Source: Nitrospira sp. CR1.1
GTDB lineage: Bacteria; Nitrospirota; Nitrospiria; Nitrospirales; Nitrospiraceae
DNA length: 64,000 nt
Assembly: GCA_014055465.1 (NCBI GenBank)
Contig: WIAF01000003.1
Span: forward strand, 372,001-436,000
Direction: 5' to 3'
Within the stretch, counting starts at the first letter, position 1, and each line of letters begins with the position of its first letter. The notes under the pieces are model-generated. The model made no database searches and was not told the DNA's origin. It was given only the letters and a program-made list of their open reading frames with translations. This document shows positions 16,630 through 27,352 of this stretch, one piece after another. A program made the translations under genes and the position numbers.

Positions 16630-17556
16630 ATGTTCACTTCTATGAACGCGCAACCGACTCACTATCGTCCATTCAGTATAGGCCTCCGAACGTGGCTTCT
16701 GGTCGGTCCGCTCATGGGAATGTTATGCATTCCTACAGCACGAGCCGAGGAGCCGCGTGATCCGGAGGCCACCCTGCGGACGCTCGTTCAGGCCAATGCC
16801 GAACGGGATCTTGCCACCATGTCGAAATACATGTCACATGACATGGATGCCACTGGGTATACGATTGACGGACGCAAGTACATCGGATGGCCGGATCTGG
16901 CCGCCGATATGCGCAGCGAGTTTGACTCGGTGGTCAAACTTGAAATTCCAATCACCAGCCTCCGCATGTGGACGAAAGGCGATGATATCGCCTGGTTCGC
17001 GATGGAATTGAACTATATTCGGTACAGCAACCCGGACGACCTTACCCAACGGATGGTCCTTCCCCTTCGAGAAACAGGCGTACTGGAGCGACGAAACGGC
17101 CGATGGATCCTCGTGGCCTGGCATGAATCGACACGCCATCATGACAGCGGAACGGAACAGACGGCGGCCAACCGCACGGCGCTGCTCCATCGCGCCTCGG
17201 ATACGCAGCCGGCTGTCCAGAACGGCGTCGACTTGAGCGGCGAATGGGAAGTGACGGAAATCGAGGATAATAAGAAATACGTTGCTACGTTGAATGCCCA
17301 GGGTAACGGTCCCTACACGTGGCAAGGCGGACAATTTTCCACCACCAGCTTTGACGATCGACGTTGGCAGGGCACGTGGAAACAACCGGGAAATGATCGC
17401 GAAGGCGCCTTTGAAGTCATTCTCTCGGAAGATGGCACCGAAGCAAGAGGCATTTGGTGGTATGTGCGTGTCGGCACCAGAGACAATATCCCGCCGCGGC
17501 AGCATGGCGGCAGCTACCTGTGGAAACGACTCACCCCGCCTCCGACGGCTCCTTAA
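16630..17556 (+). CDS. Exported protein with an NTF2/SnoaL-like domain
   Basis: A 308-residue protein with a signal peptide (about 1-38, ending CIPTARAEE). The first mature domain (ATLRTLVQANAERDLATMSKYMSHDM ... GWPDLAADM ... NGRWILVAWHES) has the SnoaL/nuclear-transport-factor-2 layout seen in ketosteroid isomerase-like proteins. The C-terminal part from about 200 (LSGEWEVTEIEDNKKYVATL ... GTWKQPG) looks like a beta-rich lipocalin-type domain. No enzyme residues are certain. ATG 16630 was chosen for the AAGG site; GTG 16594 and ATG 16642 are alternatives. Confidence 0.65.
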   Translation: MFTSMNAQPTHYRPFSIGLRTWLLVGPLMGMLCIPTARAEEPRDPEATLRTLVQANAERDLATMSKYMSHDMDATGYTIDGRKYIGWPDLAADMRSEFDSVVKLEIPITSLRMWTKGDDIAWFAMELNYIRYSNPDDLTQRMVLPLRETGVLERRNGRWILVAWHESTRHHDSGTEQTAANRTALLHRASDTQPAVQNGVDLSGEWEVTEIEDNKKYVATLNAQGNGPYTWQGGQFSTTSFDDRRWQGTWKQPGNDREGAFEVILSEDGTEARGIWWYVRVGTRDNIPPRQHGGSYLWKRLTPPPTAP

Positions 17557-17633
17557 CGGACGGGCGGTAACTCCCGACGGAGCTTCACACACACACCCAT
17601 GGACGGCCGGTCTGTTACAACGAGGAGGGGCCT

Positions 17634-18635
17634 ATGAATCGTGCGCTTCTATTGGCAGTCATGTTATTGAGCCTCACGAGTATGGTGTATGCCGACGGCG
17701 GACATGATCACCACGCCATTCCAACCATGCCGAGTTTAGGCGAGACGAGACTGACCATCGACGACCAGACCGTCACGCTCACATTCGGCCCTGTCGATCT
17801 CCCGACCGGTCACGACGGCGATCTGGCCTCCAGCATGCCGAAGAAGGTGTTCCAATTGCCGGAGGACACCTATATGGTCGGCTACAAGTCCGAAGTCTTC
17901 ACCAAGGATGGCAAGCCGCTCCCGAAGAATTACTTGCATCACATTCTGATGTTGAACAATGACAAGCCAAGCGTCTCGTGCGATGGAGAACCGTTATTTT
18001 TTGCCGGGGCCGGCCTGGAGATGACGGAAGCCCGTTTCCCGGACGGATACGGGGTGAAGTTGGGCAAAGGCCAAAACCTCATGTCCGTAGTTGCGTTTTA
18101 CCACAAGGCACCGCCGACGAAAGACGTGATGGCACGCTTCACGATGTATGTCGCCCCGAAGGGCACGAAGGTCCAGGAGATGGACGTCTACCAGGTGGGC
18201 GTGAACATCGTCTGCTACAGCAAATTCGCGCAACGAGGTTCAGACCAGACAGATGAAGGCATTGAGATTAAGCCCGGTGTCTCGGTGCTTTCCGCGCCCC
18301 TGAAATTCAACATGGATGGCTGCGTCAAGTTCGCCTATCCCCACGGGCATGACGAGCTACTCATGGTCGCGCTTGAGAATACGACTTCAAAGGAAACGCT
18401 CCTCCGCACCGTTCCCGAGGTAGATGCCGACGGCACGTTCCGGGACTTCCGTCCCCATCAGGTCTACCGGGATGGTAAAGGATTTCCGGTGACGAAGCAG
18501 GACGACTACGAGATGGTGATGGTTCACCATCACCTTCTGCAAAACCCCAATATTCAACATGGCATGGGGAACTATCTGCTTTATATGACGCCTGGCGCTT
18601 GTCAGCAGGCATCGACCACGGCCTCGGCGCACTAA
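17634..18635 (+). CDS. Exported PHM/Nod19-like putative copper-binding protein
   Basis: A 333-residue protein with a signal peptide (1-20, ending MVYA) and a very good ribosome-binding site (GAGGAGGGG). A His-rich start (GGHDHHAIP) precedes a beta-sandwich. LPKNYLHHILMLNNDKPSVSC resembles the copper-binding His-His strand of peptidylglycine monooxygenase-type domains and the plant Nod19 family; YPHGHDELLMVALE supplies an H-x-H pair and MVMVHHHLLQNP a further cluster. This suggests a periplasmic mono- or dicopper protein, either an oxygenase-like enzyme or a copper carrier. Assignment is by motif only. Confidence 0.6.
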   Translation: MNRALLLAVMLLSLTSMVYADGGHDHHAIPTMPSLGETRLTIDDQTVTLTFGPVDLPTGHDGDLASSMPKKVFQLPEDTYMVGYKSEVFTKDGKPLPKNYLHHILMLNNDKPSVSCDGEPLFFAGAGLEMTEARFPDGYGVKLGKGQNLMSVVAFYHKAPPTKDVMARFTMYVAPKGTKVQEMDVYQVGVNIVCYSKFAQRGSDQTDEGIEIKPGVSVLSAPLKFNMDGCVKFAYPHGHDELLMVALENTTSKETLLRTVPEVDADGTFRDFRPHQVYRDGKGFPVTKQDDYEMVMVHHHLLQNPNIQHGMGNYLLYMTPGACQQASTTASAH

Positions 18636-18650
18636 TCGGAACCGTTGAGC

Positions 18651-18680
18651 GCCCACCACAGGACGATTGCTGTGGTGGGC
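18651..18680. terminator. Strong hairpin after the PHM-like gene
   Basis: GCCCACCACAG pairs perfectly with CTGTGGTGGGC (11 bp) around an 8-base loop, 15 bp after the stop codon. There is no following T-run. It can act as a transcript-stabilising or terminating structure. Confidence 0.5.
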
Positions 18681-19001
18681 CAGGCCCAACCAGACATCAG
18701 TCCTGGCAGACTAGACACACCAGGCCTGGCTCCAATCTGAACACTTTCCTCACCTTCACGCCACGCCGGCCCACTTCAGTTTTGACGCTCGAATCAAATT
18801 TCCCCTACAGAAGTGGAACCGCCCCCTCGGGCGGCGGACTGGGATTATCAGGAAGGTGTATGATATTGAACCAGTCATGCAGTGCACTCAGTTCGGGAAG
18901 GACAGATTTGTTCGCCTGAGAGGGAGGGTATGCTCAGCACTGTACGGTGGCGCGTTTCCCGTGGCGCAGATAGCTACCGGGCATATTGAACGCGCCCCTG
19001 C
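18681..19001. other. Upstream region of the large regulatory fusion gene
   Basis: About 320 bp with no coding frame of note. A CCGCCC/GGGCGG hairpin lies near 18822-18840 and a TATGAT element near 18857-18862 could be a -10 box, but no matching -35 was found. No -24/-12 (sigma-54) element was seen here. Confidence 0.35.
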
Positions 19002-22000
19002 ATGAAGACCATGAGATCTTCCATGTCCTTGCCCGAACCCTCGCTTCATATCCTCCTCATCAATGAGAATCCAGACGAAATCAAGTTGGTGACAACCAGC
19101 TTGAGAAGCTTTTTCGCCGGCTGTCGCATCGAAGCCGGATACTCGTCCGAAGAAGCCCTCGCATTCAGCCGTCAGGGCGACTGGCATATCATCCTTATTG
19201 ATCAGGATCTGAGTCCGGAACGGGGCCTGGACCTACTTGCTCGCCTCCGTCGCAATGCTCCCTACGCCGCGATCCTACTCCAGACCAACGAGAATGACTC
19301 ACAAACTGCCGTCCACGCACTGCAGCACGGCGCCGACTTTTTGCTGTTCAAACGATCTCCCGGCTTTATCACTGAACTCCTTTTTTCGGTACAGGAAGCC
19401 CTTGAAAAACGTGACTTGCAAATGAAGCTGGACCACACGTTTCAACGGCATTTGCGTGTGATCGAAACACTGAGCGATTTATCATACGAACTCGACGCGG
19501 ACGGCCGCTTTGTGTATGTGAGTCCGACTGTCACGGCTATGCTTGGGTATACCGCGGATGAACTCGCCGGTCGACACTACTCCCTCTTGCTTCCTCCTCA
19601 CCAGGAACCAACCGCACGGTTCCGATTGAATGAGCGCCGGGCAGGCAGCCGTTCAATTCGCCGAATGGAATGCACGTTGTACCGGAAATCCCTTCCGGAT
19701 ACGCCGCCGGAACCCATCACCGTAGAAATCACAGCAAAAGGACTCTTCGATTCCACCAACCGCTACCTGGGAACCGTCGGCTTGCTACGCGATCTGTCTC
19801 AACAGAAAGCTCAACAGAACCGCCTGGCTGAACTGGAATCGCGCCTTCAGGAGACCAACCGCCAACTCGCCCTCTCGCGTGAGGCGGCCCGGGTCTCCCG
19901 CCAATTGCAACAGCCCCTCACCTCTTTGCTGCAAGACTCACAACGATTGCTAACATCGATCCAACACAGCCGGATCGAGCAACATGTTGAAACGATGATC
20001 GCTCAGGCTTCGCAAGCAAGCCAACTTGGCCAGCAGTTGGCAGCAGCGATTCACGCCCGCCCCATGGAATTTGTTCCTCTCGACCTGAACGACGTACTTC
20101 AGACGGTTGTCCAGACTGCACAAGATGAGACAGAAGACACACGCGTACGGCTCACCACTTATTATGCAGGCAATCTTCCAGTCATACTTGGTTCGCGTCC
20201 GGCATTAGAAAACCTCGCGCACATCTTGCTCGCCTATGCGCGTCAATACACCTTTCACAACTTGCCCCCCAGGCTTATCCTGAAAACCACCGCACTGGCC
20301 ATGGAAAGCCGTGGGGCTGCTTCACAGGAAGCGGCATCGCACCCGCGGCATGTCCCTACATATGCAAGCTTTACCATTCGAGGGATGGTCGGCGATCTAC
20401 GCCAGCCTCCGGATAACAGACTAGGCCAGGATCGTTCGGCGGAAGGATTTTTTCAAGCACACCAGATTGTTCAGGCACATCGAGGCGCCATCGAGGTCGA
20501 ACATACGCCCGACAGCGGTTTGGCGATCACGGTTCGCATCCCTGCTTCGGAGGACTTTTCGCTCGCGCCGCAGCCTCGTGAATCACCGGCCCCGACCACC
20601 TCGTCTACCCGGTTTGATGGTCACAATCCCGCCCGATCCATCCCAGGACAACGTCCTGAACGTCGCCGATCAGAACGCAAGCCATTCTCCTTACCCGTTC
20701 AATTGTCGATCGGGGGCACAACCCTTCGCGGGCTATTGCGCAATATGAGTACCGAAGGGGCGCTCCTGACTATCCAGGGATTGGAGGCGTCCATCCACCT
20801 GCAGCCGGCCTATGTCGTCATTAAGACCCCAGTGAGCTTCCTGGAACTTCAAGGCGTGGTGCATGAACGACCGTCCGCGGATTTGCCTCTGCCAACTATC
20901 AAAGACTTCGTGATTTCTTTTTTCCCCGCCGCCGAACATGAGCTCAATGTCCTCAGATCGCTGCTTGATGGCCTAAAGGACGGCTCGACACAGATCACCT
21001 TCGAAGGATTGATTCTTCCTTCGCCTCCAGCAACCGTGAGCCGCCAAACCGGTCTCATTTCATCCATGCCCATGCCGGAAGACCGGCGCGAAGCCGTTCG
21101 ACTGAACGTGTCCTGTCTCGTTCACGTGACTGAATCCCAGGCCTCCTCATCGCACTCGTCCGGCCGGATCCTCAATCTAAGCCTGAACGGAGCCTGCATT
21201 GATCTGCCTGGAGAGGCCATCTTATCCGGAAATCCGCAGGTCATCCGCCTGACTCTTGATGAATCGATTGAGATGGTATCCGTAACGGGCGCCCATCAAG
21301 CGCAGAAGGCCAACCAACCATTAACGGCGCAGATCATCTGGAAACGTCCGGCGCAACTGATGCCGACAACCAGCCGTGCAGCATCAGGAGAACAACGGCA
21401 ACAAATCGGGATACGCTTTGACGGTCTGTCCTCCCCGCACGAATACAAACTTCGTGGCATCATGGAACCCGGGTTCCGCGCGGGTCAGAATTTCGCCGAA
21501 CGGCAGGCTGACGCTCCCGTACTCACGGACTCACACAGCCTGCGAAACCGTGAAGGGCACACGATTGCGTTACAGCATGATTTCCCCACACTCGGCGGCG
21601 GAGAGCATGATCCGCTGGTGCTGCTCTGCCCGGAGTACGGCACAACGCAGCACGCCTACGTAGCCCTGGCGTATACATTGGCCGGCCGCGGGTTTCATGT
21701 GCTGCGATACGATCACAGCCGCCATATCGGGCTTAGTGACGGCGACCCGTCGCAAACCACGTTCACTTCGCTGGAAGACGACCTTGATGCCGTGCTGACC
21801 TTCGCCCAGGAAAATTGGCCCCAAAGGCCTCTGACCCTCCTGGCATCGGACCTCCTCGGTCGTATCGCGCTGCGAAGAGGTGATTGGCACAGACGGCTTC
21901 GTCGCCTGATTCTTCTCAATCCGACACTCGACCTCGGACAGTGCCTGATAACCCTGCACCATCGAGATTTGTTACGCGAACATCTGGACGGCGCGCGCCT

Positions 22001-23219
22001 GGGACTGGGCAATCTGCTCGGTATTCCGCTCGACATTGACCATTTTCTGGCCGACGCGGTGGCCGCACAATATACCGATGTGACTGTGCTACGAGATGAA
22101 CTCGCGCAGTGCGGAACGGACGTGGTCGTCATAACCGGCGGGCAAGATGGCACTGACTGTTCGATTCCGGCCCCTGCCCCAAATCTTTTGAACGAGGTGC
22201 TCTCTCAGCTGGGGGCAAACGGCAGGAAAGTGATGCTACCGTCGTCCGTCCTGACTGCTGGACGGATTCCATCGTCGACTCTGCGCGCAAGTTGGCAGCA
22301 ACTTTCACACCTCTGCCACGCGGGGCAGGCGATTCACGAACCTAGTCCCACAATGCTTCCGGCGCTCTCACGCGCAACGTCCACTCGTGCCCGATTCGAA
22401 CGCGATCAACTCCACCACAAACAGGCCATTGGTACCGCGAGCAACGAACGACTCTGGTCAGCGCTCACCGATCTCACATGTGCCATGGATGAGCTGCCGG
22501 CACATTGGCACTCGATCGATCAGCTCTACCAACTCCTGCAACCACTCGATGGAAACCTCGGGCTTCTGGATATCGGCTGCGGGATGCATTCTTTCGCCCG
22601 GTTGCTCCTCCTGAACCTTTCGTATCGCCTACGCGCCCAAACGTGGCCCCATGCCAAACCCCTCCGGTATGTCGGCATCGACTTCTCCTCCACCGCGTTG
22701 CATGCGGCGCGGATCTCAGCACAGGAGGCCAGACAGCACCTGGATAAGCTGTTTTCGGAGCGCCTCTCCATACCGGCACCCATCACCCAGCAATGGGTGC
22801 TCGGCCGATCGTCAGAAGCACTGCCTTTTCCCGACCATTCATTTGACCGTGTGGTGGCAAATCTCTCGCCAAGTTTTGCGCGGTCACCGATGCACACGCT
22901 GCGAGAACTCTTCCGCGTGCTTCGCCCCGGCGGAAAACTTATTTTGAACGTCTTCACCCCTGCCACTGATTTAGCCCGCCTCTACAGGCCTGCCGTACAT
23001 GAACTTGGCCTAGACGCATTTTCGGGAGCGCCCCGCCTGGCCTTACACCGCATGGCACAGTGCCGTGTTGCACTACGTACAGGACAAGTGCATACGTTCG
23101 AAGAAGAGAGCCTGACCATTCAGCTCTCCCGCTTCACACCTATTACACCGCGACTCGTTCGCGCTCTCTCCGGGCAGATGTTGCTCGCCGCCGCTGAAAA
23201 ACCGGATTCCTCTGGCTGA
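19002..23219 (+). CDS. REC-PAS-pseudokinase-PilZ-PilZ-LuxD-like-methyltransferase fusion
   Basis: 1405 residues in one open frame. REC: about 14-135, with acceptor Asp67 (LIDQDL) and Lys117, but the acidic pocket is N-E-N. PAS: about 155-268. A kinase-like region follows: the H-box position reads VSRQLQQPLTSLL, with Arg300 replacing the His, and the ATPase half (360-513) lacks N and G1 boxes. PilZ 1: about 551-650 (R555-x3-R559, NMSTEG). PilZ 2: about 692-820 (R696-x3-R700, NLSLNG). LuxD-like acyltransferase: about 845-1110 (GFHVLRYDHSRHIGLSDG, nucleophile Ser949), but the catalytic His position is Val1083. Methyltransferase: about 1145-1400 (LLDIGCG; ELFRVLRPGGKLIL). It probably couples c-di-GMP and phosphorylation to methyl transfer on an unknown acceptor. 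Confidence 0.85.
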   Translation: MKTMRSSMSLPEPSLHILLINENPDEIKLVTTSLRSFFAGCRIEAGYSSEEALAFSRQGDWHIILIDQDLSPERGLDLLARLRRNAPYAAILLQTNENDSQTAVHALQHGADFLLFKRSPGFITELLFSVQEALEKRDLQMKLDHTFQRHLRVIETLSDLSYELDADGRFVYVSPTVTAMLGYTADELAGRHYSLLLPPHQEPTARFRLNERRAGSRSIRRMECTLYRKSLPDTPPEPITVEITAKGLFDSTNRYLGTVGLLRDLSQQKAQQNRLAELESRLQETNRQLALSREAARVSRQLQQPLTSLLQDSQRLLTSIQHSRIEQHVETMIAQASQASQLGQQLAAAIHARPMEFVPLDLNDVLQTVVQTAQDETEDTRVRLTTYYAGNLPVILGSRPALENLAHILLAYARQYTFHNLPPRLILKTTALAMESRGAASQEAASHPRHVPTYASFTIRGMVGDLRQPPDNRLGQDRSAEGFFQAHQIVQAHRGAIEVEHTPDSGLAITVRIPASEDFSLAPQPRESPAPTTSSTRFDGHNPARSIPGQRPERRRSERKPFSLPVQLSIGGTTLRGLLRNMSTEGALLTIQGLEASIHLQPAYVVIKTPVSFLELQGVVHERPSADLPLPTIKDFVISFFPAAEHELNVLRSLLDGLKDGSTQITFEGLILPSPPATVSRQTGLISSMPMPEDRREAVRLNVSCLVHVTESQASSSHSSGRILNLSLNGACIDLPGEAILSGNPQVIRLTLDESIEMVSVTGAHQAQKANQPLTAQIIWKRPAQLMPTTSRAASGEQRQQIGIRFDGLSSPHEYKLRGIMEPGFRAGQNFAERQADAPVLTDSHSLRNREGHTIALQHDFPTLGGGEHDPLVLLCPEYGTTQHAYVALAYTLAGRGFHVLRYDHSRHIGLSDGDPSQTTFTSLEDDLDAVLTFAQENWPQRPLTLLASDLLGRIALRRGDWHRRLRRLILLNPTLDLGQCLITLHHRDLLREHLDGARLGLGNLLGIPLDIDHFLADAVAAQYTDVTVLRDELAQCGTDVVVITGGQDGTDCSIPAPAPNLLNEVLSQLGANGRKVMLPSSVLTAGRIPSSTLRASWQQLSHLCHAGQAIHEPSPTMLPALSRATSTRARFERDQLHHKQAIGTASNERLWSALTDLTCAMDELPAHWHSIDQLYQLLQPLDGNLGLLDIGCGMHSFARLLLLNLSYRLRAQTWPHAKPLRYVGIDFSSTALHAARISAQEARQHLDKLFSERLSIPAPITQQWVLGRSSEALPFPDHSFDRVVANLSPSFARSPMHTLRELFRVLRPGGKLILNVFTPATDLARLYRPAVHELGLDAFSGAPRLALHRMAQCRVALRTGQVHTFEEESLTIQLSRFTPITPRLVRALSGQMLLAAAEKPDSSG

Positions 23220-23325: not shown

Positions 23326-24609
23326 ATGACGCTCCACCCCAACAGCCGGCACACGCCCGTTCTTTCAGGGTCCATGGAAATCATTCGACTGGTCGGTGAC
23401 TTTGCTGAAACCCTGGGAGCCGCGCGGGACCTCTCACGTCTCGGGAACCCGATTGTGAGGACACTCTCGCAACATACTCGCCTGCAAGAAGCGGCAGTAT
23501 GGATACGAGAGTCCGAAGACGGCCAGTATCGTCTCCTCGCATCCCATGGACACAGCGATTTCTCATCACTACCGCCGGCGTTGACCAGCGATCACCCCCT
23601 CGTCACAGGTCTTTCAGGGAAGCCATATATGTTTCATGACGACCACAAACCGTCTTCTCCGGTTGGCCTGGCCATGACGGCGGTCCGTGCAACCCTCTGT
23701 CTCGCGTTACGGAACAAGGGACGGCTCCTCGGGCTGTGCACCCTGGGGCCAGTCAACACGGATACGCGCCTCGATGAAGACGCCATGGTCCTCGGCGAAA
23801 CGATCGCGCGTATCGCAGGCAACAGCCTCGATCACCTCCTGACACAAAACGACCTCCGTCGCTCCTCCACCTTGATGAGACGGACAGACCGACTACGTTC
23901 TTTGGAAATCATGGCCGGCGGGTTTGCTCATGAAATCCGCAATCCGCTCACCTCCATCAAGACTTTTGTCCAACTGGCCCCCCAGCGGCAGCAGGATCCG
24001 GTCTTCATCAACGAGTTCAGCAAACTGGCCCTAGAAGACATTCACCGCATCGAACGCCTGCTCCATGAGATTCTCGACTATGCCAGCTACATGACCCCTC
24101 ACCCCACTGAAGTCGACCTGAACGAACTCGTCGCCTCCTGCATCGGCTTCGTCTCGTCGAGCGCGGCGCACCGTGGCATTCAATTACAGACTCACCTGGC
24201 GCCTCAGCTCCCTCCACTCTCGCTTGATCGACAACAAATCAAGCAAGTCCTGTTGAATCTGCTGCTGAATGCCCTGGATGCGATGCCGAACGGCCACGGG
24301 ATCATTCAAATCCATACGCATCTTCTGTCGCAAGCCGGCAACCCACCGTGGGTGCAATTGCAGGTCAAGGACGAAGGATGCGGTATCCCGCCCGATCACC
24401 TGGAACATATTTTTGATCCTTTTTTCAGCACGAAACATTCCAATAGCGCCAGTGACGGAGCCGGACTCGGGCTGACTACCGCACATCAGATTGTCCGGGA
24501 ACATGGCGGCGCCATCACGGTTGAAAGCCGCGTGGGAGCGGGCTCCACATTCTCCGTGAATCTTCCGGTTCAGGATACATGCCCCACAGTGTCAGCAGCA
24601 CGGGAGTAA
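23326..24609 (+). CDS. GAF-domain sensor histidine kinase
   Basis: A 427-residue soluble kinase without transmembrane segments. A GAF domain spans about 25-175, followed by HisKA with His202 in GGFAHEIRNPLTSIK. The ATPase domain has the N box NLLLNALDAM, G1 VKDEGCGIP, F DPFFSTK and G2 GAGLGL. The ordered boxes resemble NtrB/ZraS-type partners of NtrC regulators. The stop lies one base before the response-regulator start, so the pair is cotranscribed. The signal sensed by the GAF domain is unknown. Unlike the preceding fusion protein, its catalytic motifs are all intact, so it may be the phosphodonor for all REC domains in this block. Confidence 0.92.
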   Translation: MTLHPNSRHTPVLSGSMEIIRLVGDFAETLGAARDLSRLGNPIVRTLSQHTRLQEAAVWIRESEDGQYRLLASHGHSDFSSLPPALTSDHPLVTGLSGKPYMFHDDHKPSSPVGLAMTAVRATLCLALRNKGRLLGLCTLGPVNTDTRLDEDAMVLGETIARIAGNSLDHLLTQNDLRRSSTLMRRTDRLRSLEIMAGGFAHEIRNPLTSIKTFVQLAPQRQQDPVFINEFSKLALEDIHRIERLLHEILDYASYMTPHPTEVDLNELVASCIGFVSSSAAHRGIQLQTHLAPQLPPLSLDRQQIKQVLLNLLLNALDAMPNGHGIIQIHTHLLSQAGNPPWVQLQVKDEGCGIPPDHLEHIFDPFFSTKHSNSASDGAGLGLTTAHQIVREHGGAITVESRVGAGSTFSVNLPVQDTCPTVSAARE

Positions 24610-24610
24610 C

Positions 24611-26023
24611 ATGAAAAAACGAGTACTACTTGTCGATGATGAGCCGCGTGTCCGGGCCTCGCTGAGAACGGTGCTGGAACCAACGTACGAGATCCTCGAA
24701 GCGGCGGATGCGGCCGAGGGCCTCAGACGTTTCAAACACGATGCCCCCGATCTGGTTCTCCTGGATGTCATCCTCCCGGGAACGGACGGGCTATCCGCCC
24801 TCCAGACGATGCGAACCGAGAATCGAGCCGTCCCGGTGATTATGTTGACAGGGACCAAAGCCGTTAAAACAGCCGTCGATGCGATGAAGCTCGGGGCCGC
24901 CGACTATCTGTCCAAACCGTTCGACGTCGACGAACTTCAAATTGTCATCGAACGAACGCTGGGCAAGCAGGAGTTGGAGCAGGAAGTCCGTCAATTGCGC
25001 GCCCAGGTTGTGCAACGGTATGCCTTCCATAACCTCATCGGCAAAAGCCCCTCCATGCAGGAAATTTACGCCAAAATCGAACAGGTGGCCGATAGTCGCA
25101 CCACCGTGCTGGTCACCGGCGAGAGCGGAACCGGAAAAGAACTGGTCGCCAAAGCGATTCACTACAACAGCGCCAGGCGGGAACGCCCATTCATCGCACT
25201 CAATTGCGCAGCCTTGCCTGAAACGCTCATCGAAAGCGAGTTGTTCGGCCATGAGAAAGGGTCGTTCACCGATGCCACGGCACGACGAGTGGGCCAGTTC
25301 GAATTGGCGCACACGGGCACGCTGTTTCTGGACGAAATCGGCGACCTTAGTCCGGCCACGCAGGCGAAGCTCTTGCGGGTGTTGCAGGAACGGGAATTTA
25401 CGAGGGTCGGCGGAGTGCAATCCATCAAGGTCGATGTCCGGATCGTCGCTGCGACCAACAAAAACCTCGATGAGATGGTCAGAAAAAATCTGTTCCGCGA
25501 GGACCTGTATTACCGTATCAACGTCATTGCGCTCTACCTCCCGCCGTTGCGCGAACGAGGGGAAGACATTGCGCTTCTGGCCAAGCACTTTCTCTCAAAA
25601 CGCATCGAAGAAGAAAAACGTCCGTCCCAGGAATTCACCAAAGACGCGCTCGAATTGATTTCACATTATCCGTGGCCTGGGAACGTGCGCGAGATGGAAA
25701 ACATCATCGAACAGGCATTCATCTGGTCGAAAGGCTCCCCGGTCATCACACCCGAGCATTTGCCGAACATCTTGCGAACGGATACCCGCTCGTCGTCGCT
25801 CCGGGATGACACACTCGCGGGGCGATTATCGCTGGAAAAGGCCGTCATGGAGTTCGAACGCGAAATCATTCTGGATGCGCTCAAGCGAACGACATACGTA
25901 CAAACTCATGCGGCCGCCATGCTGGGCATCAGCCGTCGCATGCTGAAGTATCGCATGGACACATTGGGAATCAGCAGGCCGGACACCGGAGGACAGGCCG
26001 AGACTCAAATGCCTCAGGAATGA
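24611..26023 (+). CDS. NtrC-family sigma-54-dependent response regulator
   Basis: 470 residues: REC (1-120, acceptor Asp52, Lys102), AAA+ activator domain (about 140-380; Walker A GESGTGKE at 170-177, Walker B FLDEIGD) and a Fis-type helix-turn-helix (about 425-455, HAAAMLGISRRMLKYRMDTLG). The sigma-54 contact loop reads GSFTDA (217-222) rather than GAFTGA. It should activate sigma-54 promoters after phosphorylation by the adjacent kinase. The next gene has a matching -24/-12 promoter, so it is the most likely target. AlgB, ZraR and AtoC are relatives, but no specific name is warranted. Confidence 0.93.
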   Translation: MKKRVLLVDDEPRVRASLRTVLEPTYEILEAADAAEGLRRFKHDAPDLVLLDVILPGTDGLSALQTMRTENRAVPVIMLTGTKAVKTAVDAMKLGAADYLSKPFDVDELQIVIERTLGKQELEQEVRQLRAQVVQRYAFHNLIGKSPSMQEIYAKIEQVADSRTTVLVTGESGTGKELVAKAIHYNSARRERPFIALNCAALPETLIESELFGHEKGSFTDATARRVGQFELAHTGTLFLDEIGDLSPATQAKLLRVLQEREFTRVGGVQSIKVDVRIVAATNKNLDEMVRKNLFREDLYYRINVIALYLPPLRERGEDIALLAKHFLSKRIEEEKRPSQEFTKDALELISHYPWPGNVREMENIIEQAFIWSKGSPVITPEHLPNILRTDTRSSSLRDDTLAGRLSLEKAVMEFEREIILDALKRTTYVQTHAAAMLGISRRMLKYRMDTLGISRPDTGGQAETQMPQE

Positions 26024-26149
26024 CACACCCTGACACACAAGCCTCTGCACATGTCTCATATTTTTTTGAGTACGAGCCCCACGCATCAAACTTCTTGTGG
26101 CCTGAAGTAGAGAGACCTGCTATAAATTGCCAAGTGATGTATCCGTACG

Positions 26150-26165: not shown

Positions 26166-26209
26166 TTTCGTCTTTCCTGAAGTTCGCAATGCACCCGGGA
26201 GCGCTCTGG

Positions 26210-27352
26210 ATGGGAACTCAGGCATCAGCTGAACAGATCAGCGTAAAACCGTCGGTCCTCGTCGTCGATGATGAAACAGGCCCGCGAGACGCGCTGAAAG
26301 TTATTCTTCGCCCCTTCTTCACCATCCACTCCGCTGACACCGCCAAATCCGCCCTCCGGGTTCTGAAGGACCAGCACATCGACCTCATCACGCTGGATCA
26401 GAAATTACCCGACCGCCAGGGTATCGACCTGCTGCAGGACATCAAGCAGGATTACGCAGACATCGAAGTCATCATCATTACGGGATACGGCAGCCTGAAG
26501 TCTGCCATGGAAGGCATCCGGCACGGGGCGGCCGGCTATCTGCTCAAGCCCTTCAACGTCACCGAACTCATCACGCTGATCAACCAGACCTTGGAGAAAA
26601 AGCAGCGGCTCGACTATTTGCGATCGTTTTTAAAAACTTCGACCGCCTTGTGGGGCAACGAACAGGAAGCAGCGCAAGCGTGGAAGGATCTGCAATCGAA
26701 CTATTTCGCGATCGGCAATGCCTCAACTGAAGCACAGAGAAGTGCGGCGGACGTCACGGCGCTCATTCCATTATTATCCGATTTGCTCGAAGCCAAGGAC
26801 CGGCAACTCCTCAACCATTGCAGCCGAGTCAGTTTCTATGCGTCGCTTCTGGCCAACCAGCTGACACTCCCGCTGCCGGACCAGAAGGCCTTGGCGCTGG
26901 GAGCCTTTCTCCATGATATCGGCAAGATCAGCCTCGCCAATTACAAGTATTCGGCGGATGACGATGAAAGCCTGAAAGCCAGCACTCATGCGAGAGACTG
27001 TTTCGAAGCGGGAGCCCGGATGCTGTTACCGCTCGGGTTTCAAGCGGAGGTCGGGCAAATCGTGGTCTATCATCAGGAACGCTTCGACGGTGTGGGCAAT
27101 CCACACGGCCTCGAAGGCGAAGGCATCCCGCTTCTGGCACGTATCGTCGCCATCGCCCAGGCATTCGACAACCTGACGGTAGACATGCCTGGACACCAGC
27201 CGACATCCATCGATGAGGCGATTCGACAGATCCTTCTGCAAGCCGATACCCACTTCGACCCCAGACTGACAGAGCTCTTTGCCCAAGTGGTGCGGGAGTG
27301 CAAGTCTTCTCTGCCGGCCCTGGCGATCGCCAAAACCTCGCCCACAAACTGA
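26210..27352 (+). CDS. Response regulator with a degenerate HD-GYP domain
   Basis: 380 residues from ATG 26210 (GGGAG site; ATG 26189 is an alternative). REC at about 15-125 has Asp63 in TLDQKLP. The C-terminal domain has the HD pair at about 235-236 (FLHDIGKIS), H-x-R-D-C-F-E-A-G, and YHQERFDGVGNPHGL at about 287-301. The family form is HHE...DGxGYP, so one metal-binding His is Gln and the GYP Tyr is Asn. HD-GYP enzymes hydrolyse c-di-GMP; here activity may be altered and the protein could act as a sensor or a divergent hydrolase. It is transcribed behind a predicted sigma-54 promoter. Confidence 0.88.
   Translation: MGTQASAEQISVKPSVLVVDDETGPRDALKVILRPFFTIHSADTAKSALRVLKDQHIDLITLDQKLPDRQGIDLLQDIKQDYADIEVIIITGYGSLKSAMEGIRHGAAGYLLKPFNVTELITLINQTLEKKQRLDYLRSFLKTSTALWGNEQEAAQAWKDLQSNYFAIGNASTEAQRSAADVTALIPLLSDLLEAKDRQLLNHCSRVSFYASLLANQLTLPLPDQKALALGAFLHDIGKISLANYKYSADDDESLKASTHARDCFEAGARMLLPLGFQAEVGQIVVYHQERFDGVGNPHGLEGEGIPLLARIVAIAQAFDNLTVDMPGHQPTSIDEAIRQILLQADTHFDPRLTELFAQVVRECKSSLPALAIAKTSPTN

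Follow-up and report, generated by a model that had tools for sequence, protein, structure and literature searches.

Does a protein that carries signaling domains, a LuxD-like domain and a methyltransferase in a single frame act as a signal-gated enzyme, or has an enzyme here been turned into a signaling protein? The question is raised by a 1405-residue protein, the long form, encoded in a 64-kb stretch of the Nitrospira sp. CR1.1 genome (the window), which we compared with related loci of Nitrospirota (given L-numbers). With a probability of roughly 0.6 we favor a reading in which the long form descends as a pseudoenzyme from a family whose intact members would constitute a candidate acyl-signal module. 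The long form and its domains are laid out as follows:

19002..23219, forward strand: long-form protein, REC-PAS-pseudokinase-PilZ-PilZ-pseudoLuxD-methyltransferase, 1405 residues in a single ATG frame
19050..19355, forward strand: REC domain, residues 17-118 (Pfam)
19455..19793, forward strand: PAS domain, residues 152-264 (Pfam)
19845..20552, forward strand: histidine-kinase-like core, residues 282-517 (hhalign), with Arg300 for the phospho-histidine and the ATP boxes lost
20658..20981, forward strand: PilZ domain 1, residues about 553-660 (Pfam), RxxxR and NxSxxG intact
21081..21452, forward strand: PilZ domain 2, residues 694-817 (Pfam), motifs intact in the window protein
21534..22331, forward strand: LuxD-like alpha/beta-hydrolase domain, residues about 845-1110, triad lost, Asp950 codon at 21849-21851
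22359..23201, forward strand: class I methyltransferase domain, residues about 1120-1400, with motif changes

LuxD is the myristoyl-acyl carrier protein (ACP) thioesterase/acyltransferase of luminous bacteria, and the resemblance to it noted in the first-pass annotation reflects true homology: when triad-intact relatives of the long form were built into a profile and compared with the PDB, Vibrio harveyi LuxD (1THT) was the top match (E=2.8e-33), with Ser114, Asp211 and His241 of 1THT falling on the ATS-L, D-AWV and LH-R motifs of these relatives. The active relatives match the LuxD family PF02273 (Acyl_transf_2) with 81-97 bits over profile positions 20-253 of 294, whereas the window protein reaches 29.4 bits (cutoff 20.3) over positions 37-116 only; for the NCBIfam LuxD model NF052253 (cutoff 420) the corresponding scores are 84-98 and 29 bits. 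Alignment through the triad-intact relatives to 1THT showed that in the window protein: 1) the nucleophile Ser114 is replaced by Asp950; 2) His241 is replaced by Thr1085; and 3) the acid loop is rebuilt. Hence Ser949, earlier taken for the retained nucleophile, merely adjoins the nucleophile column, and the histidine column, earlier placed at Val1083, lies at Thr1085. Throughout the long-form clade the aspartate occupies the nucleophile column (29/29 rows), the histidine is never kept (0/29) and the sequence of the acid loop varies between members. The methyltransferase has likewise departed from the expected motifs, with GCGNG changed to GCGMH in motif I and AD to GR after motif II, while Asp1227 of motif II is kept; in sister genera the erosion goes further (D to G, GCG to GVG). 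The ratio of nonsynonymous to synonymous substitution rates (dN/dS) is 0.12-0.21 for the long-form LuxD domain versus 0.056-0.066 in an active paralog, and 0.125-0.19 versus 0.03-0.05 for the methyltransferase, so that the dead domains evolve under relaxed but still purifying selection, at 2-4 fold the ratio of the active paralog. With the triad gone in all 29 clade members and the S-adenosylmethionine (SAM) motifs eroded, the earlier proposal of an enzyme acting on an acyl or lipid-like substrate finds no support for the window protein, which is very likely a conserved pseudoenzyme.

The remaining architecture stood largely as first described. Matches above the curated Pfam cutoffs were obtained for REC, PAS, PilZ (two stretches, 48.6 bits), Hydrolase_4, Acyl_transf_2 and Methyltransf_11 (residues 1189-1315), all within the one reported frame. 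The REC domain retains Asp67, Thr95 and Lys117, with Asn21-Glu22 in place of the acidic pair, and both PilZ domains display the RxxxR and (D/N)xSxxG motifs (RRSER...NMSTEG and REAVR...NLSLNG), which makes gating of the protein through REC and PilZ plausible. The core at residues 282-517 gave no Pfam match; however, profile-profile comparison by hhalign with the neighboring genuine kinases aligned it over 209 columns (98.5% probability), placing Arg300 on the phospho-histidine of the AHEIRNPL motif, and alignment with a real kinase showed that the N, G1 and G2 ATP-binding boxes are absent. It is hence a degenerate rather than a functional histidine kinase, as the first-pass annotation had it. 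A relative from another genus (L062) still has the histidine (LSHDIQTPL) and a sub-threshold HisKA match. We do not claim derivation of this core from the adjacent kinase, since other kinases of the genome match it better. A sequencing frame error joining separate genes, raised at the outset as one possibility that would undo this architecture, is excluded because a search with the C-terminal half recovered the same gene, at 47-78% identity and with conserved synteny, in 29/29 Nitrospira genomes. The open frame spans 1402-1453 residues in the genus, except in two fragmented assemblies; the closest named records are those of Nitrospira sp. UBC2 and S2bin.16 (76-78% identity), and the long form also occurs in further genera of the family. 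REC is its most constrained domain (dN/dS 0.026-0.055) and PilZ domain 2 the fastest evolving.

A second copy, the short form, is present in 26/29 of the genus genomes as a PilZ-PilZ-LuxD-methyltransferase protein of about 815-1000 residues, without REC and PAS. Its Ser-Asp-His triad is intact, its SAM motifs are complete and its Pfam LuxD match (86 bits) covers most of the profile. In the CR1.1 genome its gene (contig 2, 223.4-226.3 kb; L039:8946-11747) is separated by 36 bp from that of a following 1001-residue kinase (L039:5907-8909) with HisKA_7TM, GAF, HisKA and HATPase domains. Two Pup-ligase genes (L039:13676-15160 and 17219-18736) and an AAA ATPase, a bacterial proteasome locus, are found near the short form and are conserved across the genus.

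Our systematic search covered Nitrospirota, where the LuxD-methyltransferase combination, dead and active forms together, was recovered in 78 of the 345 genomes sampled; the neighborhoods of 66 loci were examined. A kinase was counted as membrane-bound if it lay downstream on the same strand and had at least 3 hydrophobic segments by plain hydropathy. Among the 28 triad-intact loci, 25 have such a kinase downstream and none a soluble one, and at two more (L103, L104) a frame for a seven-transmembrane (7TM) protein begins directly downstream before the contig ends, bringing the coupled loci to 27/28. Conversely, all 30 loci with the aspartate nucleophile are accompanied by a kinase without a membrane part (one of these kinases has a single hydrophobic segment). 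The association of triad state with kinase type is strong (Fisher p=3e-16), though the loci are related and this figure ignores descent. In the tree the serine was lost twice, once in the 29-member long-form clade (support 100/98) and once in L065, and a soluble kinase is found in both. HisKA_7TM scored above cutoff in 6/6 scanned kinases of triad-intact loci, those of L039, L064, L070, L121 and L123 among them. At L105:7883-12805 the coupling has become a fusion, PilZ-PilZ-LuxD-methyltransferase-7TM-GAF-HisKA-HATPase in one frame of 1640 residues, followed by a sigma54 (NtrC) regulator and an HD-GYP regulator and preceded, 31 bp upstream, by a consensus sigma54 site. Sigma54-like sites of the form TGGCA[CT]-N5-TTGCT, or near it, lie upstream of 8/8 active genes of family f3 as well as of L105 (p 0.004-0.043 each, against same-locus controls). 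Enzymes of acyl-chain synthesis also appear in these neighborhoods: a ketoacyl synthase directly precedes the LuxD-methyltransferase gene in L123 and L124, where a 7TM kinase and a second kinase follow (with an HD-GYP regulator in L123), and in L066 (7161-8756) and L106 (6936-8498) enzyme and kinase are separated by a fusion of PilZ to 3-oxoacyl-ACP synthase III (KAS III). L106 further encodes a neighboring REC-PAS-PilZ-methyltransferase protein that has no LuxD part.

These loci suggest the order in which the long form may have been assembled. In L064 a separate REC-PAS-PilZ gene precedes the active enzyme; in L103 REC-PAS is fused to a triad-intact enzyme that still has its 7TM kinase, and this locus is by its layout the apparent link between the active module and the long form. 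L066 has REC fused and the serine changed to asparagine, L061 has REC-PAS fused to a dead triad without the ATPase-like part, and in proteins of the window type the pseudokinase core is complete. What the sequences record is the loss of the triad, the coupling to a kinase, and the disappearance of the membrane part of that kinase together with the predicted loss of catalysis. The genes next to the long form are as follows:

17634..18635, forward strand: conserved upstream neighbor, 333 residues, without Pfam or NCBIfam match
23326..24609, forward strand: soluble GAF-HisKA-HATPase histidine kinase without membrane segment, the partner in every long-form locus
24611..26023, forward strand: NtrC-type sigma54 response regulator, 88-97% identical across the genus
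26189..27352, forward strand: REC-HD-GYP response regulator of the cyclic di-GMP (c-di-GMP) phosphodiesterase type, with a sigma54-like site 39 bp upstream

The kinase starts 109 bp downstream of the long form, and the order long form, kinase, NtrC-type regulator, HD-GYP regulator is kept throughout the family; a functional link between the window protein and this kinase is quite likely. The 333-residue protein is always directly upstream of the long form and is 71-95% identical in every long-form locus that covers it. The sigma54-like site before the HD-GYP regulator (CGGCACAGGTTTTGCG, 26134-26149) is partly conserved in the genus, and we found no sigma54 promoter before the gene of the long form itself.

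We propose that the LuxD part of the active module would free an acyl chain from ACP or coenzyme A (CoA), that the methyltransferase would methylate this chain, a methyl ester being the simplest product, and that the membrane kinase would sense the product and drive the sigma54 regulator and the HD-GYP phosphodiesterase. In the window lineage, as the sequences show, the enzyme was fused to REC-PAS before the triad was lost, and the adjacent kinase lacks its 7TM sensor. The window protein would make nothing; it would instead integrate c-di-GMP through PilZ, phosphorylation through REC and the input of PAS, and its dead LuxD pocket may hold an acyl ligand as a further input. It would signal to the soluble kinase, probably by contact through the pseudokinase core, and so stand in as an internal sensor for the missing membrane sensor of that kinase. 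The parts of this scheme differ in strength. We rather favor the view that the window protein is a dead, REC/PilZ-gated descendant of an active LuxD-methyltransferase, set in an operon of soluble histidine kinase, sigma54 regulator and HD-GYP regulator, and to the same degree that the active form with its 7TM kinase is a candidate synthase and sensor of an acyl, perhaps methyl-ester, signal. That the active module does make an acyl signal is a tentative proposal, against which we would lean slightly. More tentative still is the complete scheme for Nitrospirota: an undescribed system whose LuxD-methyltransferase, regulated by c-di-GMP and in some cases accompanied by a ketoacyl synthase of its own, would supply a methylated acyl signal to the adjacent 7TM kinase, and in which a duplicate of this synthase in Nitrospira would be an intracellular receptor or regulator, gated by c-di-GMP and phosphorylation, of a kinase without a membrane sensor. 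Binding of an acyl group by the LuxD part of the window protein, the fallback offered in the first-pass annotation, seems to us rather unlikely.

Several observations weigh against this reading. Only two origins underlie the correlated losses; at L115 the triad is intact but no kinase is adjacent; L066, with asparagine for the serine, has a membrane kinase 2.1 kb away, which makes it either an intermediate or a counter-example; and the degenerate loci L108 and L109 showed no such kinase. The transmembrane counts are plain hydropathy, and the AlphaFold models are useless for lack of sequences: predictions for residues 548-1405 and 1-545 from three-sequence alignments reached a mean pLDDT (predicted local distance difference test) of 30 and 42, respectively. 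The window methyltransferase, with its Asp1227, could still bind SAM. Finally, the methyl-ester product is a guess because the methyltransferase falls under every curated NCBIfam cutoff.

Could the window protein nonetheless be an enzyme gated by PilZ and REC, using Asp950 as a nucleophile of the haloalkane dehalogenase type or retaining an active methyltransferase? Aspartate nucleophiles do occur in the alpha/beta-hydrolase fold, the aspartate is constant in the clade with no free variation, and the methyltransferase keeps GxG and Asp1227. However, hydrolases of this type also need the histidine, which is lost, the acid loop is rebuilt and variable, and the methyltransferase motifs decay further in the sister genera, which makes this alternative improbable. 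At the other extreme, the pairing of a lost triad with a soluble kinase could go back by chance to a single ancestor, with the window protein a slowly decaying relic, as the descent of most of the 30 aspartate loci from one event and the raised dN/dS of the dead domains might suggest. This we regard as very improbable, for the full-length frame and its synteny persist in every complete Nitrospira genome as well as in other genera, the long-form dN/dS stays at 0.03-0.2, and L065 provides a second origin.

The substrate of the active module could also be a membrane or storage lipid, such as a methyl-branched fatty acid, with the kinase sensing the state of the membrane rather than a secreted signal. 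The ketoacyl synthase and acyl-CoA dehydrogenase neighbors suit lipid synthesis equally well, and 11-methyl-hexadecanoic acid, a known marker lipid of Nitrospira, suits a methyl-branched product. Against this, the one-to-one coupling to a sensor kinase, in one case as a fusion, and the presence of PilZ on the synthase are typical of signaling, and family matches place the methyltransferase with the UbiE/BioC/ArsM type, not the cyclopropane-synthase type; we therefore consider a lipid role unlikely, though less so than catalysis by the window protein. The BioH-BioC pair of biotin synthesis was considered because its hydrolase-methyltransferase order is alike; it is rejected, as matches to 1THT and the LuxD family are far better, and BioC reaches 34 bits against 185.

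With respect to LuxD itself, the active relatives are homologous over most of the profile and conserve the catalytic triad, but the Nitrospirota proteins are fused to PilZ and methyltransferase domains and no luxC/luxE context was seen; the window protein further differs by its lost triad. The RpfF-RpfC-RpfG system of fatty-acid signaling by DSF (diffusible signal factor) likewise unites an acyl signal enzyme, a membrane kinase and an HD-GYP regulator in one operon, although its synthase is unrelated (RpfF has the crotonase fold) and its kinase family separate. In Ralstonia, the methyltransferase PhcB makes and the kinase PhcS senses fatty acid methyl esters (PMC11960443), PhcB-PhcS-PhcR being a 3-hydroxy fatty acid methyl ester quorum-sensing system (PMC11960443, PMC8578825). 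There too a methyltransferase gene adjoins a sensor histidine kinase and receiver proteins, the coupling of synthase gene to membrane sensor kinase that all but one of the triad-intact loci display, once as a fusion, and an acyl substrate is expected in the Nitrospirota module. The latter differs in adding the LuxD acyl-release domain and PilZ and in its sigma54 and HD-GYP outputs in place of PhcA, and the likeness is one of gene layout. The window GAF kinase and sigma54 regulator also resemble PrsK and PrsR of the PEP-CTERM/exosortase system (TIGR02916, TIGR02915; PMC1569441), with 107.8 and 440 bits, respectively; both scores are under the cutoffs (300 and 502.6), and no exosortase was seen nearby.

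The active module offers a named candidate synthase-sensor pair, amenable to testing in E. coli with no need for Nitrospira genetics. Nitrospira performs much of the nitrite oxidation on Earth, and comammox, and we know of no acyl signal from such a module in this genus. The loci form a series, in which an active enzyme with a membrane kinase is followed by a REC-fused active enzyme and this by a dead enzyme with a soluble kinase; it would be an easily read example of a signal synthase turned signaling protein. The literature yielded no paper that combines LuxD with Nitrospira, nor any that brings it together with PilZ and methyltransferase; PF02273 was absent from 14 control genomes, viral contigs gave weak methyltransferase matches only, and plasmids a single LuxD, in an E. 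coli record. A tight cluster of an acyl-CoA dehydrogenase, a PilZ-hydrolase-methyltransferase, a hybrid kinase and a kinase (L119:5885-12986) is a distant version of the LuxD-methyltransferase/kinase module.

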